Part shown: positions 1-5,727 of the stretch, piece after piece
How positions within the stretch are numbered: position 1 is the first letter of the stretch
How the letters are laid out: every line of letters begins with the position of its first letter
From: a bacterium
GTDB lineage: Bacteria > Blakebacterota > Blakebacteria > Blakebacterales > Blakebacteraceae
DNA length: 5,727 nt
Direction: 5' to 3'
Assembly (NCBI GenBank): GCA_025774615.1
Contig: JALGVQ010000175.1
Location: 1-5,727 of the forward strand
The notes under the pieces: generated by a model
Told to the model about the DNA's origin: nothing
Seen by the model: the letters and a program-made list of their open reading frames with translations, nothing else
Database searches by the model: none
Made by a program: the position numbers and the translations under genes

Positions 1-260
1 TCCAGAGCGGATATGTTGTTGTCCTGATGGAGGATACGGCCCGGCCCGGCAGGTTCTTCACCCACCCGCTGGTGACCATCGCGAATGGTCGTCCTCTCTC
101 ACCGCAGACCGGCGATCCCTTCTCGATCAGGCGGCTGAAGCCGCTGCTCTACGACATTTCCCTCCCTGAAGGATTCATGTTGCGGGAGGTACGCATCCTC
201 GTGTACGACCGTGCGGGCGAGCTGCTTCTCGATCAGGGATTTCCCGTGGAGAGCAGATGA
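1..260 (+). CDS. C-terminal end of an unrecognised protein (5' truncated)
   Basis: The frame is open from the left edge (first full codon at base 3) to the TGA at 258-260, giving about 85 residues. An ATG at 27 lies in frame, but no Shine-Dalgarno-like stretch precedes it and the frame stays open upstream, so I read this as the tail of a longer protein. I do not recognise the family. The visible part has no long hydrophobic segment. It reads as alternating beta strands, ending in a strand-turn-strand pattern (LREVRILVYDRAGELLLDQG). The stretch ITIANGRPL-like to GDPFSIRRLKPLLYDI, residues VTIANGRP onward, faintly resembles the beta modules of the next protein. Its stop overlaps the next start by 4 bases, so the two are probably translated together and may act in the same exported pathway. 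Coding status is well supported; function is unknown. Confidence 0.75.
   Translation, partial: QSGYVVVLMEDTARPGRFFTHPLVTIANGRPLSPQTGDPFSIRRLKPLLYDISLPEGFMLREVRILVYDRAGELLLDQGFPVESR
248..253 (+). promoter_or_regulatory. Ribosome binding site of the M99-like gene
   Basis: GGAGAG lies 3 to 8 bases before the ATG at 257; its GGAG core ends 5 bases before the start. It sits inside the end of the upstream gene. It supports the ATG that overlaps the upstream stop as the true start. Confidence 0.65.
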
Positions 261-2227
261 TACGCCGGGCGCTGATACTCGGATCCCTGCTGGCGGTGGT
301 TGCCGTTCTCTTCTCGGCGATCCTGACCATCTCCGGGATTACGACATCCGGATCGGACGCCACCTTCGGGAGTACAATTCCCGGGGGGCCGGTGCTGGCT
401 CCTCTCACCACGATGGGGGGTGATGGAGATTCATCCCGTTCGCTCATCGTTTCCTCCGAACGGATCGACCCTGATGCCGAGGACAGCCCCGGGCGGACGC
501 ACGAAGTCTTTTTTCCCAACACCGATCACGAACTGCACGTCTACCATATCCGCGGGCGAGAGCCGGGATCGACGATGCTCATCATCGGCGGTATACACGG
601 CGATGAACCGGGTGGGTATCTGGCCGCGGATCTCTATGCCGATCTCTCCCTGCGTCGTGGGAATCTGATCGTGGTGGCGAGAGCGAATATCCAGTCGATC
701 CACCATAACACCAGGGGTGCCAGCGGTGATCTGAATCGCCGGTTCGGCGGATATGATGACGGCCAGATCGATCAGGAGATCGCGGTCGTCCTCGAGGATC
801 TCATCTCGGAATCCGATGTACTCCTGAACCTCCATGACGGATCGGGATTCTACAGTCCCGAAAATGAAGGGTCCCGGCGGAATCCCCGACTGTGGGGCCA
901 ATCGGTGATCATCGACGCCGATGGATTCACGATGCCGGAAGGGCAGCGGTGTGATCTGCTCTCCACAGCCGAGTCGGCGGTCGCGCGGGTCAATGGTCTG
1001 ATCATCGATTCAGATCATCACTTCAAGGTCAAGAACACGCTCACATTCGATGAGAACTCGACCCATAGGGAACAGAGAGGATCGGCGACCTTCTATGCCG
1101 TGAGTGAGGTTGGTATCCCCGGTTTCGGTGTTGAAACCTCACAGGATATCGACAGAGAGTCGCTGCGGGTCGAGTACCAGGTGCTGGTGATAAACGCGTT
1201 TCTGGATGAATTCGGGATCGTTCCCGACCATCCCCGGTTCGCGCTCGAAACCCCCGCTCTCAGGTACATCGCGATCTCCATCGATGGTGGTCCATCGATG
1301 ATAATAGAAAATGGTGGATCACTGAACGTGGCACCCGGTTCCTCGGTCGAGATCACCCATATCGAAGCCAACTACGAACGGGGCATTACGGTTGATTTCG
1401 AAGGGAAGGGCGGGTTCAACGATCTGGGGCGGACATTCCGTCTTGAGGGTGATACACGGGTCAGGGTGAACAAGGACAAATACCCGTGCGGCAGCGTGCT
1501 CCTTGTCGCTGATGCCTCCCTGGCCGGTGTTCGCGGCTCGCCGAATGTTGCTCCCAAAGAGACTTCCCGGGTCAGCATTGAGGCATTCCGGATCGCTCTC
1601 AATGGACGATGGACCTGGCTCCGGCCGGAAGAGACCCTTCGGGTGCTTTGGGGAGATGAGCTCATCCTGGATGATCCTATTGCTCCCGCGACCGGGAGTT
1701 ACAAAATCAATTTCCGTGGTTTTGTCGGGAATCAGAACAACAACGATGGCGAGGACAGGGGATATACGATTTTCACCGCCCACGATCTCCTGCAGCGGTT
1801 CAGCCTCAGTCCCGAGACGGAACGGTATGAGATCAGGGCAGAACTGGGGGGAACCATATTCGCCCGTTCATTTGTGGAGATCGTAGTGCCCCGGCTCGAA
1901 TACGTACTCATTCAGCCTGAGGATGGTCCCATACTGGCTCTTACCGAGGGCGATACCATCGATATCGGACCGACCTCCAGCCTGAAGGTGATCGATGTCG
2001 TCACCATACCGCGTGATTCAGATCCGGTCACGGTCGACCTGCGCAGACTCACCGGATCGGGAGGAACAGATGATCGTGGCGAGACGATCCAGCTCGGATC
2101 CGAACTCCTGAAAGACCACGATCTGCCAGGTCATGACGGGCTCTATGAGATCACCGTCAGACGGAAAGGTCTGCAGATCGGACGGGTGATGGTCCGGTTC
2201 GACGCTCCTGGCGGCGGTCAGCAGTGA
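257..2227 (+). CDS. Exported M14/M99-type zinc carboxypeptidase (Csd4/Pgp1-like) with three C-terminal beta modules
   Basis: A 656-residue protein. Residues 1-4 (MIRR) followed by a hydrophobic stretch at about 5-28 form a signal peptide or N-terminal anchor; I see no clear cleavage site, so an anchor is more likely. The catalytic domain covers about 80-320. Zinc ligands are His114 and Glu117 in GGIHGDEPGG and His193 in NLHDGSGFY. Substrate-binding residues are Arg153 and Asn160-Arg161 in the GDLNRRF motif. The likely catalytic Glu is Glu293 in FGVETS. NLHDGSG and the exported, beta-rich architecture favour the M99 D,L-carboxypeptidases, which trim peptidoglycan stem peptides and control helical shape in Helicobacter and Campylobacter, over cytoplasmic succinylglutamate desuccinylase. 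As I recall, Csd4 has Gln in place of the first His; here it is His, as in ordinary M14 enzymes. The protein is about 200 residues longer than Csd4, the extra length being beta modules at about 335-650. The start overlaps the upstream stop (ATGA). The catalytic class is firm; the substrate is inferred from family and from the neighbouring anmK. Confidence 0.85.
   Translation: MIRRALILGSLLAVVAVLFSAILTISGITTSGSDATFGSTIPGGPVLAPLTTMGGDGDSSRSLIVSSERIDPDAEDSPGRTHEVFFPNTDHELHVYHIRGREPGSTMLIIGGIHGDEPGGYLAADLYADLSLRRGNLIVVARANIQSIHHNTRGASGDLNRRFGGYDDGQIDQEIAVVLEDLISESDVLLNLHDGSGFYSPENEGSRRNPRLWGQSVIIDADGFTMPEGQRCDLLSTAESAVARVNGLIIDSDHHFKVKNTLTFDENSTHREQRGSATFYAVSEVGIPGFGVETSQDIDRESLRVEYQVLVINAFLDEFGIVPDHPRFALETPALRYIAISIDGGPSMIIENGGSLNVAPGSSVEITHIEANYERGITVDFEGKGGFNDLGRTFRLEGDTRVRVNKDKYPCGSVLLVADASLAGVRGSPNVAPKETSRVSIEAFRIALNGRWTWLRPEETLRVLWGDELILDDPIAPATGSYKINFRGFVGNQNNNDGEDRGYTIFTAHDLLQRFSLSPETERYEIRAELGGTIFARSFVEIVVPRLEYVLIQPEDGPILALTEGDTIDIGPTSSLKVIDVVTIPRDSDPVTVDLRRLTGSGGTDDRGETIQLGSELLKDHDLPGHDGLYEITVRRKGLQIGRVMVRFDAPGGGQQ
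1259..2200 (+). repeat. Three tandem diverged beta (Ig-like) modules encoded in the M99-like gene
   Basis: Residues about 335-416, 438-543 and 546-648 can be aligned by eye. Each opens with a strand containing an Ile-rich core and a Gly (YIAISIDGG, AFRIALNGR, YVLIQPEDG). Each continues with an 'E..tl.v..g..l.i' stretch, then a strand ending near 'V.vdf.g'. Each then has an Asp/Arg-Gly turn (FNDLGRTFRL, GEDRGYTIF, TDDRGETIQL) and closes on 'Y.I.v...g..i.r..v'. This is protein-level similarity only; the DNA copies have diverged. Such modules in exported peptidoglycan enzymes usually bind wall or place the catalytic domain. The module family name is not certain. Confidence 0.5.
1279..1300 (+). 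repeat. Inverted/direct repeat CATCGATGG within the M99-like gene
   Basis: CATCGATGG (1279-1287) and CCATCGATG (1292-1300) form a perfect 9-bp stem with the 4-base loop TGGT. Because CCATCGATGG is itself palindromic, the two copies are also direct repeats 14 bases apart. They encode the linker into the first beta module (SIDGGPSM). This may be a transcript hairpin or a chance product of the codons for Ser-Ile-Asp and Pro-Ser-Met. Confidence 0.4.
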
Positions 2228-3465
2228 GTCCTCCCCGGGCAGCCCGGCTGTTGGCCGGGTGCATGTCGGGGACTTCGGCAGATGGTATCGATACAGCCCT
2301 GCTCCGCCTTGAGGGCGATTACCCCGACATATCGTGGGAACTTGTTGCTTCGCGCACGGATCCCTTTGCTGAGGATCTGAGGAACGAGATCCTTCTCGCC
2401 GCCCGTCCGGAAACAGCGCTCCTCGCCCGGAGTGCCCATCTCCACACGCGACTGGGAGAGGTATACGCCGAAGCGGTGCGGTCACTGGTCAGGTCCGCCG
2501 GAATACATGAAAGCGATCTTGCCGCCACAGGTCTCCATGGACAGACCGTCTTTCACGATCCCCGGGGCGAATATGGCCGGTTGCCGGGGGATGATCCCGC
2601 TCCTGCTGGTGTGAGCGTTCAGATCGGTTCAGCCGCCATTGTCGCTGAGCGGCTCGGGTGTGATGTGATCAGTGATTTCCGCAGCCGGGATGTCGCGGCC
2701 GGAGGAGAGGGAGCACCCCTTGTACCGTTTGCCGACGCGGTGCTGTTCCGTTCTCCCGGGATCGACCGCATCATACTGAACATCGGAGGAATCGCGAACC
2801 TGACCTGGTTGCCCGCCGGCAGGGGGATCGATGGTGTTACCGGTTATGACATCGGTCCCGGTGTCATGGTGATCGACTCACTCGTCCGGTCGGGTACCTC
2901 CGGAATGAGGTTCGACACAGACGGGCTGCTTGCGCGGGAGGGAGAGGTGATCCCCGATCTGCTTGAGCAGTGGCTTACCCATCCTTTCCTGCTCCGGACA
3001 CCACCGAAAAGCACCGGGCGGGAGGAGTTCGGCGATGCATTCACCGGCGCGGTCCTGCAAGCGAGGCGGGATGACCACCCGCTCCCCGATCTGGTGAGAA
3101 CCGCGGTGGAGTTCACGGTCGAATCGATCGCTCGAGCCTGTGAGATGCACCTGCCGGAGGTGGGCGGGGATACCGGTAACCAGGAGATCATCATCGCGGG
3201 CGGTGGGGCACGGAACCCGGTCCTGATGGAGTCTCTCGCCGGACGTCTCGCTCCGGTACCCATTCGACCGAGTGATGATCTGGGACTTCCCATCGACGCC
3301 AGAGAGGCGGTCGCGTTCGCTCTCCTGGCCGATGCCTTCCTCATGGGAGTACCGTCGAATGTTCCGGCAGTAACGGGAGCGGGACACCCGGTCGTGCTCG
3401 GAAGCCTTGTTCCCGGGCCCCGGCGACCGCTCACTACCGGCGCAGGGGAGGGGATGCAGGCGTGA
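2224..3465 (+). CDS. anmK: Anhydro-N-acetylmuramic acid kinase
   Basis: A 413-residue cytoplasmic sugar kinase. It hydrolyses the 1,6-anhydro ring of anhMurNAc and phosphorylates O6 with ATP, giving MurNAc-6-phosphate for MurQ, so wall turnover products return to metabolism. Motifs in order: the phosphate loop MSGTSADGID (14-23), HGQTVFHDP (105-113), QIG (133-135), DFRSRDVAAGGEGAPLVP (151-168), NIGGIAN (186-192), GYDIGPG (207-213, with Asp209 the likely catalytic base), the HPF to PKSTGREEFG stretch (253-270), GGGARNP (326-332) and EAVAFALLAD (361-370), closing with NVPAVTGA. It is some 40 residues longer than the E. coli enzyme, with a short N-terminal tail and extra C-terminal residues, but no key motif is missing. 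The GTG start overlaps the upstream TGA (GTGA). It is needed because the first beta strand (RLLAGC) lies before the next in-frame ATG. No clear Shine-Dalgarno is present, so translation probably depends on the upstream gene. The identification is secure. Confidence 0.96.
   Translation: MSPPRAARLLAGCMSGTSADGIDTALLRLEGDYPDISWELVASRTDPFAEDLRNEILLAARPETALLARSAHLHTRLGEVYAEAVRSLVRSAGIHESDLAATGLHGQTVFHDPRGEYGRLPGDDPAPAGVSVQIGSAAIVAERLGCDVISDFRSRDVAAGGEGAPLVPFADAVLFRSPGIDRIILNIGGIANLTWLPAGRGIDGVTGYDIGPGVMVIDSLVRSGTSGMRFDTDGLLAREGEVIPDLLEQWLTHPFLLRTPPKSTGREEFGDAFTGAVLQARRDDHPLPDLVRTAVEFTVESIARACEMHLPEVGGDTGNQEIIIAGGGARNPVLMESLAGRLAPVPIRPSDDLGLPIDAREAVAFALLADAFLMGVPSNVPAVTGAGHPVVLGSLVPGPRRPLTTGAGEGMQA
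2243..2259 (+). other. Small GC hairpin just inside anmK
   Basis: CCCGGC (2243-2248) can pair with GCCGGG (2254-2259) around a 5-base loop. It begins 19 bases after the first base of the anmK GTG start, within the footprint of an initiating ribosome or just beyond it. A competing CCGGGC/GCCCGG pairing nearby has too short a loop to form. The hairpin may dampen independent initiation at the weak GTG start, but a 6-bp stem in high-GC coding DNA may also be chance. Confidence 0.25.
3444..3453 (+). promoter_or_regulatory. Strong ribosome binding site of the symporter gene
   Basis: The purine run AGGGGAGGGG ends 8 bases before the GTG at 3462, inside the last codons of anmK. It supports the GTG that overlaps the anmK stop. 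It also suggests that the symporter can load its own ribosomes, unlike anmK, which lacks a comparable site. Confidence 0.7.
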
Positions 3466-4916
3466 CCGGACTCGACCTGATGGTACTGGCGGTCTACCTG
3501 GTGGGGAGCGTCGGCCTGGGGTTGTGGATGGGGCGTTCCCAGCGGTCGGCTGCCGAGTACTTCCTCGGGAACCGTTCGCTTCCCTGGACACTTGTGGCGC
3601 TCTCAGTCGTGGCGACTGAAACGAGCACGCTCACCGTGATCAGCGTTCCCGGTCTGGCCTATCACGGCGACATGACGTTCCTGCAGCTGGCCTTCGGATA
3701 TGTGATCGGGCGAATCGCCATCGCCATCATCCTCCTGCCCTCCTACTTCAGGGGTGAGTCGGAAACGGCATATGCCTTCCTCGGACAGCGATTCGGCAGA
3801 GCGCCCCAGATGACCGCCTCCGGACTCTTCCTCATCACCAGAGTACTGGCTGATGGAGTGCGGCTTTTCGCAACTGCCATCCCGCTGGCTCTCATCACCG
3901 GCTGGTCATATCCGGTCTGCATCCTCATCATCGGAGCCATAACGGTTCTCTATACCTATGTCGGCGGTATCAGGTCGGTGGTATGGCTCGACTCGGTACA
4001 GCTGGTGCTCTACATCTCCGGTGCAGTCATCGCGCTCTGGATCGTGATCACCGTGATCGGGGGATGGGCCGGGTTCACCGACGCCCTGCCGGCGGGGAAG
4101 CTCAGGATCTTCGATATGGGACTTGATGAGGGCTGGCGCGGACTCTTCTCGGGAGGCTACAAGCTGCCGGCGGCACTCCTGGGCGGCGCGTTCCTCAGCA
4201 TGGCGAGCCACGGGACCGATCAACTGCTGGTCCAGCGTCTCCTCTCGACTCGGGGGCTCCGTCAGGCCCAGATGGCGCTCATCGCGAGCGGGTTCATCGT
4301 GGTACTCCAGTTCCTCTTCTTCCTCCTCCTCGGCTCAGCGCTGGCGGTCTTCTACGAAGGAGCGGCGATACCCACCGACCAGGTGTTCCCGCGCTACATC
4401 GTTGAAGGACTCCCTCCCGGACTCTCGGGGCTCCTGCTTGCCGCGATCTTCGCCGCGGCGATGTCCACCCTCAGCTCGAGTCTCAACTCGCTGGCGAGCA
4501 GTACCGTCTTCGATCTCTTCAGGTCGCGCCGGGATCTTCCTGGTGATGATCAGGAGAGGGATTCCAGTGATCTGAGACGTGGCCGACTGAGTACTCTTGT
4601 CTGGGCGGGTGTGCTTGTGGGCGGCGCGATGCTCTTCCGCACGACCGACAATCCGGTCGTGGAGATCGGACTCGCGATCGCCTCGGTTACCTACGGCGGG
4701 TTCCTCGGCACGTTCTTTCTCGGACGCTTCACGACGACACCGGGGCCGCGAGCAGCAGTGGCTGCTCTTCTGGCCGGAGTGGTCACTGCCGGCGCTCTCG
4801 TCCTCTTTACCGGCATATTCTGGGTATGGCTTGTACCCTTCGGGTGCGCGGCTTCGTTCACGACCGGCTGGATCCTCGGCCACGTACCGGGTTTCGAACA
4901 GACCGATCATCCCTGA
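3462..4916 (+). CDS. Sodium:solute symporter (SSS family), candidate importer of a peptidoglycan sugar
   Basis: A 484-residue inner-membrane protein with about 13 hydrophobic segments, near residues 6-23, 42-63, 73-93, 119-141, 147-166, 177-200, 234-249, 272-298, 319-343, 376-392, 400-420, 430-450 and 453-472. This is the usual SSS count. Family landmarks: AEYFLGNRSLPW (31-42) before the second segment, YVGGIRSVVWLDSVQ (166-180), SHGTDQLLVQRLL (249-261) and AAAMSTLSSSLNSLASS (331-347), whose Ser/Thr residues match the Na2 sodium site of the family. A charged cytoplasmic loop lies at about 351-375. Substrate cannot be read from sequence. The 4-base overlap with anmK (GTGA) points to anhMurNAc, MurNAc or a small muropeptide. 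As I recall, a symporter of this type imports MurNAc next to a MurNAc kinase in Tannerella forsythia, which is a useful precedent. Start choice rests on the overlap and the ribosome binding site. Family is certain; substrate is inference. Confidence 0.93.
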   Translation: MTGLDLMVLAVYLVGSVGLGLWMGRSQRSAAEYFLGNRSLPWTLVALSVVATETSTLTVISVPGLAYHGDMTFLQLAFGYVIGRIAIAIILLPSYFRGESETAYAFLGQRFGRAPQMTASGLFLITRVLADGVRLFATAIPLALITGWSYPVCILIIGAITVLYTYVGGIRSVVWLDSVQLVLYISGAVIALWIVITVIGGWAGFTDALPAGKLRIFDMGLDEGWRGLFSGGYKLPAALLGGAFLSMASHGTDQLLVQRLLSTRGLRQAQMALIASGFIVVLQFLFFLLLGSALAVFYEGAAIPTDQVFPRYIVEGLPPGLSGLLLAAIFAAAMSTLSSSLNSLASSTVFDLFRSRRDLPGDDQERDSSDLRRGRLSTLVWAGVLVGGAMLFRTTDNPVVEIGLAIASVTYGGFLGTFFLGRFTTTPGPRAAVAALLAGVVTAGALVLFTGIFWVWLVPFGCAASFTTGWILGHVPGFEQTDHP

Positions 4917-4931: not shown

Positions 4932-4936
4932 TCATG

Positions 4937-5727
4937 ATGTCCTCGACTCAGCATCACCCTGTCGGCCTTATCTTCACCAGAACGCTCACCGCAGCCATCT
5001 TTGCGACTTCTCTTTTCCTTGCCTCATCTCTGTTCGATCCGCCCGTACAAGCACAGGATGCCGGAGAGGTGTCAGATCCACCGACGATAGAGGAGAAGAC
5101 AGGTGGAATGACCGCCATGGAGGGGTTCTTCAACCTCTACTGGGATGAAAGGACCGGACACCTTTTCTGGGAGATCGACCGGTTCGAGAAGGAGTTCCTC
5201 TATGTGGTATCTCTGACCTCCGGTCTCGGCTCCAATCCGGTGGGACTCGACCGCGGCCAGCTGGGAGGCACATGGATCCTCAAGGCCAGAAGAGTCGGCC
5301 CCCGGATCCTCCTGGTACAACCCAACTATCGCTATCGGGCTCGAAGTGATAATCCGCGGGAGGTGGAGGCGGTCGCCTTTGCCTTCGCGCCCTCGACACA
5401 ATGGGGATTCGAGATCGCCGCTCAGAGCGGTGAGCGGGTACTGGTGGACGCCACCGACTTCTTCCTGCGTGATACGCATGGAGCAGGCGCGACCATGCAG
5501 CGGGCGGGGCAGGGGACCTTTCGGCTCGACCGGAGTCGCTCTGTCTTCCATCTTCCCCATACGAAGACCTTTCCGAAGAACTGCGAGGTGGAGACCTGGC
5601 TCACCTTCACGAGTGACGATCCGGGACGACTGGTTTCGAGCGCAGCCGCCGATGGAGGAGCGGTTTCCCTGATCCAGCACCATTCACTCGTGGAACTCCC
5701 CGATGACGGCTACACGCCCCGCAGGGC
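4937..5727 (+). CDS. N-terminal part of an exported DUF5117-type zinc metalloprotease (3' truncated)
   Basis: Frame 2 stays open from the ATG at 4937 to the right edge: 263 codons plus two bases, with no stop. A signal peptide is visible: Arg16 in the n-region, a hydrophobic core at about 18-33, and a probable cut after VQA (37-39). The mature part matches the N-terminal region of the DUF5117/DUF5118 metalloproteases common in Gemmatimonadota, Acidobacteria and Bacteroidota. Landmarks are MEGFFNLYWDERTGHLF (61-77), SGLGSNPVGLDRGQLGG (95-111), LLVQPNYRYRA (125-135), VLVDATDFFLRD (168-179), GQGTFRLDRSRS (191-202), KTFPKNCEVE (210-219) and HHSLVELPDDGYTPR (248-262). The metzincin-like HExxH catalytic site lies further downstream in this family, outside the window, so activity cannot be judged here. 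Whole members run to about 800 residues or more. The substrate of the family is not known to me. It sits 20 bases after the symporter gene with its own strong ribosome binding site, so it is probably in the same transcript; whether it shares the wall-recycling role is open. Confidence 0.88.
   Translation, partial: MSSTQHHPVGLIFTRTLTAAIFATSLFLASSLFDPPVQAQDAGEVSDPPTIEEKTGGMTAMEGFFNLYWDERTGHLFWEIDRFEKEFLYVVSLTSGLGSNPVGLDRGQLGGTWILKARRVGPRILLVQPNYRYRARSDNPREVEAVAFAFAPSTQWGFEIAAQSGERVLVDATDFFLRDTHGAGATMQRAGQGTFRLDRSRSVFHLPHTKTFPKNCEVETWLTFTSDDPGRLVSSAAADGGAVSLIQHHSLVELPDDGYTPRR

Follow-up and report, generated by a model that had tools for sequence, protein, structure and literature searches.

The window analysed here, a stretch of bacterial DNA of 5,727 nucleotides, takes up contig C249 from end to end; the draft genome to which it belongs is 82% complete. 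The genes found in it are listed in Table 1. In the open reading frame listing of the window, the first four are joined by 4-base overlaps, ATGA or GTGA, at 257–260, 2224–2227 and 3462–3465. The first-pass annotation had described a Csd4-like carboxypeptidase gene, anmK and a sodium:solute symporter (SSS) gene joined in this way, and its coordinates, overlaps and family assignments were all borne out.

Table 1. Genes and partial genes of the window
Feature	Coordinates	Strand	Evidence
Membrane protein, C-terminal end	3–260	+	108-base exact overlap with contig C54, which carries the N-terminal part
Csd4-like M99 carboxypeptidase, 656 aa	257–2227	+	Pfam PF17033 (7e-31); PDB 4wcm (6.5e-27)
AnmK, 413 aa	2224–3465	+	PF03702 (3e-97); NF007148 above cut-off; PDB 3cqy (3e-60)
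Sodium:solute symporter (SSS), probable muramyl-sugar importer, 484 aa	3462–4916	+	PF00474, TIGR00813; clade of close homologues linked or fused to NamZ
Secreted DUF5118/DUF5117 protein, gene start	4934–5725	+	PF17148 (2e-23), PF17162 (1e-6); 83% identity in L004

The M99 protein matches its Pfam family at 108 bits in the profile search (cut-off 27 bits), and its best PDB matches are the H. pylori Csd4 entries. A signal or transmembrane (TM) segment covers residues 5–23. The metal motif is H114-x-x-E117...H193, the canonical HxxE form. Alignment with Csd4 indicated that the metal-site residues E117 and H193, the arginine pair R153/R161 and the general base E293 are retained. The QxxE...H metal motif, termed strictly conserved among Csd4 homologues (PMC4220969), is not seen in the alignment of the window protein, as His114 stands at the position of Csd4 Gln46. 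The predicted structure, calculated from three sequences, has a mean pLDDT of 48. The SSS protein has 10 hydrophobic segments and scores 127 bits against PF00474 (cut-off 22.8 bits, E 2e-36) and 199 bits against TIGR00813 (cut-off 184 bits).

AnmK is a full-length match above the curated cut-offs of both PF03702 (326 versus 24 bits) and NCBIfam NF007148 (412 versus 387 bits). Its active-site Asp, D209 in the DxGPG motif, and the stretch GGEGAPLVP align with Shewanella AnmK (3cqy). The segment corresponding to the DTGPGN motif (window 2845–2880) varies within the lineage: the window has DIGPGV, its same-genus relative DTGPGV and the same-family genome DTGPGN, which is also what G002 has. In the PDB comparison the levoglucosan kinase 4zxz scored 202 bits against 207 bits for AnmK 3cqy, which would suit a levoglucosan-type 1,6-anhydrosugar kinase that, paired with the symporter, serves the catabolism of external anhydrosugars. 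The protein nevertheless passes the AnmK equivalog model, its GGxGAPLVP motif is the AnmK form, its neighbours are wall-trimming genes and murQ is present in the genome. The identity as a levoglucosan kinase was therefore judged unlikely, to the point of being highly improbable.

The phylum of the window is represented by four genomes in the set compared, with completeness of 63–85%; two of the relatives are public metagenome-assembled genomes (MAGs), "bacterium Meg22_46_Bin_213" and "Candidatus Latescibacterota bacterium". The comparison of relatives suggested in the first-pass annotation revealed that the same-genus genome keeps the gene order, as do two same-family genomes up to their contig ends. 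The same-genus genome (L004) has the order Csd6-like, TM protein, M99, AnmK, SSS and DUF5117, with 71/73/88% identity for M99, AnmK and SSS, and the same 4-base overlaps join its TM, M99, AnmK and SSS genes. One same-family genome (L005), at 63–65% identity, contains the Csd6-like, TM, M99 and AnmK genes; its contig breaks off after residue 37 of SSS, and the overlaps are kept up to that point. The third genome (L200) has the Csd6-like, TM and M99 genes, followed by the contig end. In the genome of the window itself, a Csd6-like gene and the greater part of the TM protein lie at the end of contig C54, whose final 108 bases match the opening 108 bases of the window exactly. The partial frame at the left edge is thus the end of the TM protein, preceded by the Csd6-like gene. 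A Csd6-like gene is accordingly upstream in all four lineage genomes, in the window's own genome through this direct contig overlap. The arrangement of M99, anmK and SSS is a conserved operon and not a product of chance, and the operon exceeds coordinates 257–4916, with the Csd6-like and membrane-protein genes upstream. The DUF5118/DUF5117 gene, which also follows SSS in the same-genus genome, may share the transcript.

The Csd6-like gene encodes a YkuD domain followed by two NTF2-like Cds6_C stretches; the proteins of L004 and L005 match PF03734 and PF24125, and a homologue is present on C54. In C. jejuni, Pgp2 of the Csd6 type converts tetrapeptides to tripeptides, and Pgp1 of the Csd4 type converts tripeptides to dipeptides (PMC3961634). 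The adjoining Csd6-like and Csd4-like genes fit a two-step module of stem-peptide trimming of this kind, and the pairing of the Csd4-like gene with a partner beyond the window edge points to such a role. The membrane protein is about 240 aa long in the relatives, with one TM segment and homologues in L004, L005 and L200. This single-pass protein is kept between the Csd6-like and Csd4-like genes (window 3–260; L006:3287–4000; L007:1549–2286). Its matches to DUF6776, seen in three homologues, are sub-threshold only. A Csd5-like role was considered and is given no support by the family matches; the protein is possibly a scaffold for both trimming enzymes.

With the window SSS as the query, one strong match per genome was found in 147 of 247 genomes from the phylum of G004 (a MAG labelled Bacteroidetes) and in 58 of 149 genomes from the phylum of G005 (an Acidiferrales MAG). 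These close homologues show 40–57% identity to the window SSS, while further SSS genes at the same loci show 23–27%. Five residues, E53, R127, R134, H250 and D253, are invariant in 84/84 homologues and mostly absent from seven paralogues. That two of them are arginines would fit an acidic sugar as cargo, which is only suggestive.

Gene neighbourhoods were compared at 40 loci per phylum set (80 in total) and in 20 stretches of those genomes that served as controls, counting NamZ, NagZ, MurQ, a BadF-type (MurK-like) kinase and AnmK as wall-sugar partners. At least one partner was found nearby at 28 of the 40 loci in the phylum of G005 and at 16 of 40 in that of G004, or 44 of the 80 loci; none was found nearby at the remaining 36, and none in the 20 control stretches (320 kb). 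NamZ occurs at 14 loci of each set, mostly directly adjoining SSS in the G004-phylum set, and is, together with the kinase, the commonest partner. A BadF-type kinase adjoining SSS at one locus has as its best match the N-acetylmuramic acid/N-acetylglucosamine kinase of the solved structure 8zo3. At eight loci of the Acidobacteriota group, all in the G005-phylum set (L083, L086, L088, L089, L091, L094, L100 and L103), SSS, a beta-lactamase-like domain and NamZ constitute one uninterrupted open reading frame of 1374–1574 aa; in L086 the architecture by Pfam is SSF, Beta-lactamase, NamZ_N and NamZ_C. A literature search for a link between NamZ and a symporter found nothing relevant. Such a covalent union of a transporter with the enzyme producing its likely substrate merits a separate study.

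NamZ releases N-acetylmuramic acid (MurNAc), and the substrate of AnmK is 1,6-anhydroMurNAc (anhMurNAc). The SSS clade is therefore best read as a muramyl-sugar importer, and it is probably so on the grounds of gene context, from which the exact substrate is also deduced. Since the clade is usually tied to NamZ, NagZ and MurK-like genes and not to AnmK, MurNAc would be at least as likely as anhMurNAc to be the ancestral substrate. The intracellular kinase is best read as differing by lineage, with a MurK-like BadF kinase near many SSS genes and AnmK in the window operon. Of the first-pass proposal that SSS imports anhMurNAc, MurNAc or a small wall fragment, the uptake of wall sugars is well supported, by the clustering and fusion of the clade with muramidase and MurNAc-catabolism genes, by murQ and by the failure to find AmpG; the choice among these substrates stays a matter of deduction.

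Two other cargoes were weighed against a muramyl sugar. The NagZ and BadF-type kinases near SSS also act on GlcNAc, and the solved kinase relative accepts both MurNAc and GlcNAc, so that SSS could import GlcNAc or amino sugars generally, the gene links reflecting salvage of all amino sugars of wall and chitin. This is unlikely, as the MurNAc-releasing NamZ is both the commonest partner, with the kinase, and the fused one, MurQ is among the SSS neighbours, and the partner in the window is AnmK, not a GlcNAc kinase. The other candidates are amino acids or small peptides from trimming, for example mDAP (Csd4-like step) or D-Ala (Csd6-like step). The operon holds both trimming genes, mDAP is the product released by Csd4-type enzymes, and some SSS proteins transport amino acids. 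Against this, neither an M99 nor a Csd6-like gene was found at the 80 close-homologue loci of the two other phyla, where sugar-releasing enzymes are present instead, and the gene directly upstream of SSS in the window is a sugar kinase; import of amino acids or peptides is considered quite improbable.

The first-pass annotation had suggested looking for murQ and nagZ in the same genome, and both were found, the latter as a lipoprotein NagZ. A GH3 NagZ-like protein carrying a lipobox, a beta-lactamase-like lipoprotein and, at the contig end, a NamZ fragment share a single contig of the genome. Three of the four lineage genomes, that of the window included, have murQ, and all four have a BadF-type kinase. 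In three lineage genomes the murQ gene follows immediately on two genes that, from their translations, we take to be secD and secF (L026:4937–8668, L027:7937–11598 and L028:1342–4962). The BadF-type kinase of the window's genome (L197:7196–8236) is flanked by ssb-like, mlaD-like and PTS EIIA/EIIB-like genes, not by recycling genes. AmpG, whose absence the first-pass annotation had proposed to check, was not detected in the four lineage genomes with TIGR00901 at a threshold of E 0.001, while control genomes matched. As these genomes are 63–85% complete, the absence is provisional, and the four misses in relatives make it likely. An intact ampG together with a lack of conserved SSS–anmK linkage, named beforehand as contrary to the operon reading, was not the situation found in the lineage.

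Uptake of MurNAc by a sodium symporter is already known from MurT of T. forsythia, a member of the sodium symporter superfamily (PMC5790795), and MurT has been discussed as an anhMurNAc carrier (PMC7670621). The murT-murK-murQ operon (PMC5790795, PMC10465942) resembles the window in that a muramyl-sugar importer of this superfamily is encoded in one operon with a kinase yielding MurNAc-6P, MurQ being next in the pathway. The window SSS is likened to MurT by proposed function and gene context; its clade is tied in genomes to genes that release and catabolize MurNAc, as would be expected of a MurT-type transporter. The T. forsythia kinase is MurK, of the BadF type and acting on MurNAc, whereas the window operon has AnmK in this role. 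AmpG is present and AnmK missing in T. forsythia (PMC7670621), while AnmK is present and AmpG was not found in the lineage. No trimming genes are named for the murT operon, in contrast to the Csd6–Csd4 module of the window operon. Recycling in E. coli (AmpG, NagZ, AmpD, AnmK, MurQ) shares the AnmK and MurQ steps and differs in AmpG, not found here, and in NagZ, which is a predicted lipoprotein in the lineage. Release of the sugars would thus take place beyond the inner membrane, with monosaccharides as the imported form. Csd4/Csd6 of H. pylori and Pgp1/Pgp2 of C. jejuni likewise combine an M99 enzyme with a YkuD-Cds6_C L,D-carboxypeptidase; the two genes are adjacent in the window operon, which differs in the His at Csd4 Gln46, the two Cds6_C stretches and the linkage to AnmK and SSS. 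Rhodothermus marinus also lacks AmpG and has NagZ with a signal peptide and AnmK; its authors list NagZ and AnmK and found no importer, neither MurP nor NagE (PMC6987092). The SSS clade is a candidate for that importer step.

Taken together, the operon appears to serve cell-wall trimming and sugar salvage with SSS importing a muramyl sugar, an explanation that is fairly probable. In the periplasm, the Csd6-like enzyme, followed by the Csd4-like one, would shorten stem peptides from tetra- to tri- to dipeptides, and the sugars would be freed by lytic transglycosylases, the lipoprotein NagZ, NamZ and an amidase. SSS would bring the muramyl sugar in with Na+, in the place occupied in E. coli by AmpG or the PTS transporter MurP. 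AnmK would phosphorylate anhMurNAc to MurNAc-6P, from which MurQ, encoded elsewhere in the genome, would yield GlcNAc-6P; the BadF-type kinase could accept MurNAc or GlcNAc.

The trimming genes, for cell shape, and the salvage genes might instead share a transcript without a joint function. In H. pylori and C. jejuni, enzymes of these types have a role in helical cell shape (PMC4220969, PMC3961634), and M99 and SSS are unlinked outside the lineage; on the other side, the 4-base overlaps are conserved across two genera and every named function acts on peptidoglycan. Such mere co-transcription is the less likely case, though one of some weight, and it is compatible with the transporter assignment. 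The operon interpretation of the first-pass annotation is hence partly supported, with support for the transporter and only plausibility for the tie of trimming to salvage, which rests on the operon in one family.

Three features are new: AnmK as the coupled kinase, the Csd6–Csd4 trimming module encoded alongside it in one operon, and how widely the transporter clade occurs. For the return of muramyl sugars in bacteria that have neither AmpG nor the PTS transporter MurP, a symporter clade with one member per genome, linked to NamZ through gene neighbourhood and through fusion, is a concrete, testable importer candidate. Tentatively, this clade, sometimes fused to NamZ and here coupled to AnmK and the Csd6–Csd4 module, might be a general uptake route for free muramyl sugars including anhMurNAc in many Gram-negatives without AmpG or MurP, with trimming and salvage made as one unit in the lineage. 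Trimming of the Csd4/Csd6 type beside sugar salvage suggests that its purpose may extend beyond cell shape to the turnover of the wall.

A strict rule that SSS replaces AmpG was not upheld in the 247-genome set (odds ratio 0.53, p 0.02, uncorrected for kinship), and among its AnmK-positive genomes no exclusion between SSS and AmpG-like genes was seen. Ten genomes (G180, G184, G227, G289, G329, G333, G365, G381, G393 and G404), possibly interrelated, have an AmpG-like gene, matching below the curated cut-off, within a few kb of anmK, and none of the ten has the SSS homologue. Linkage of AnmK and SSS as a general rule was also rejected: at ten other AnmK loci outside the lineage SSS was not adjacent, and adjacency was found only in G240 and G310. 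In these two genomes (L202 and L138) the SSS homologue and anmK are divergently oriented, and anmK of G310 adjoins a glucosamine-6-phosphate deaminase-like gene.
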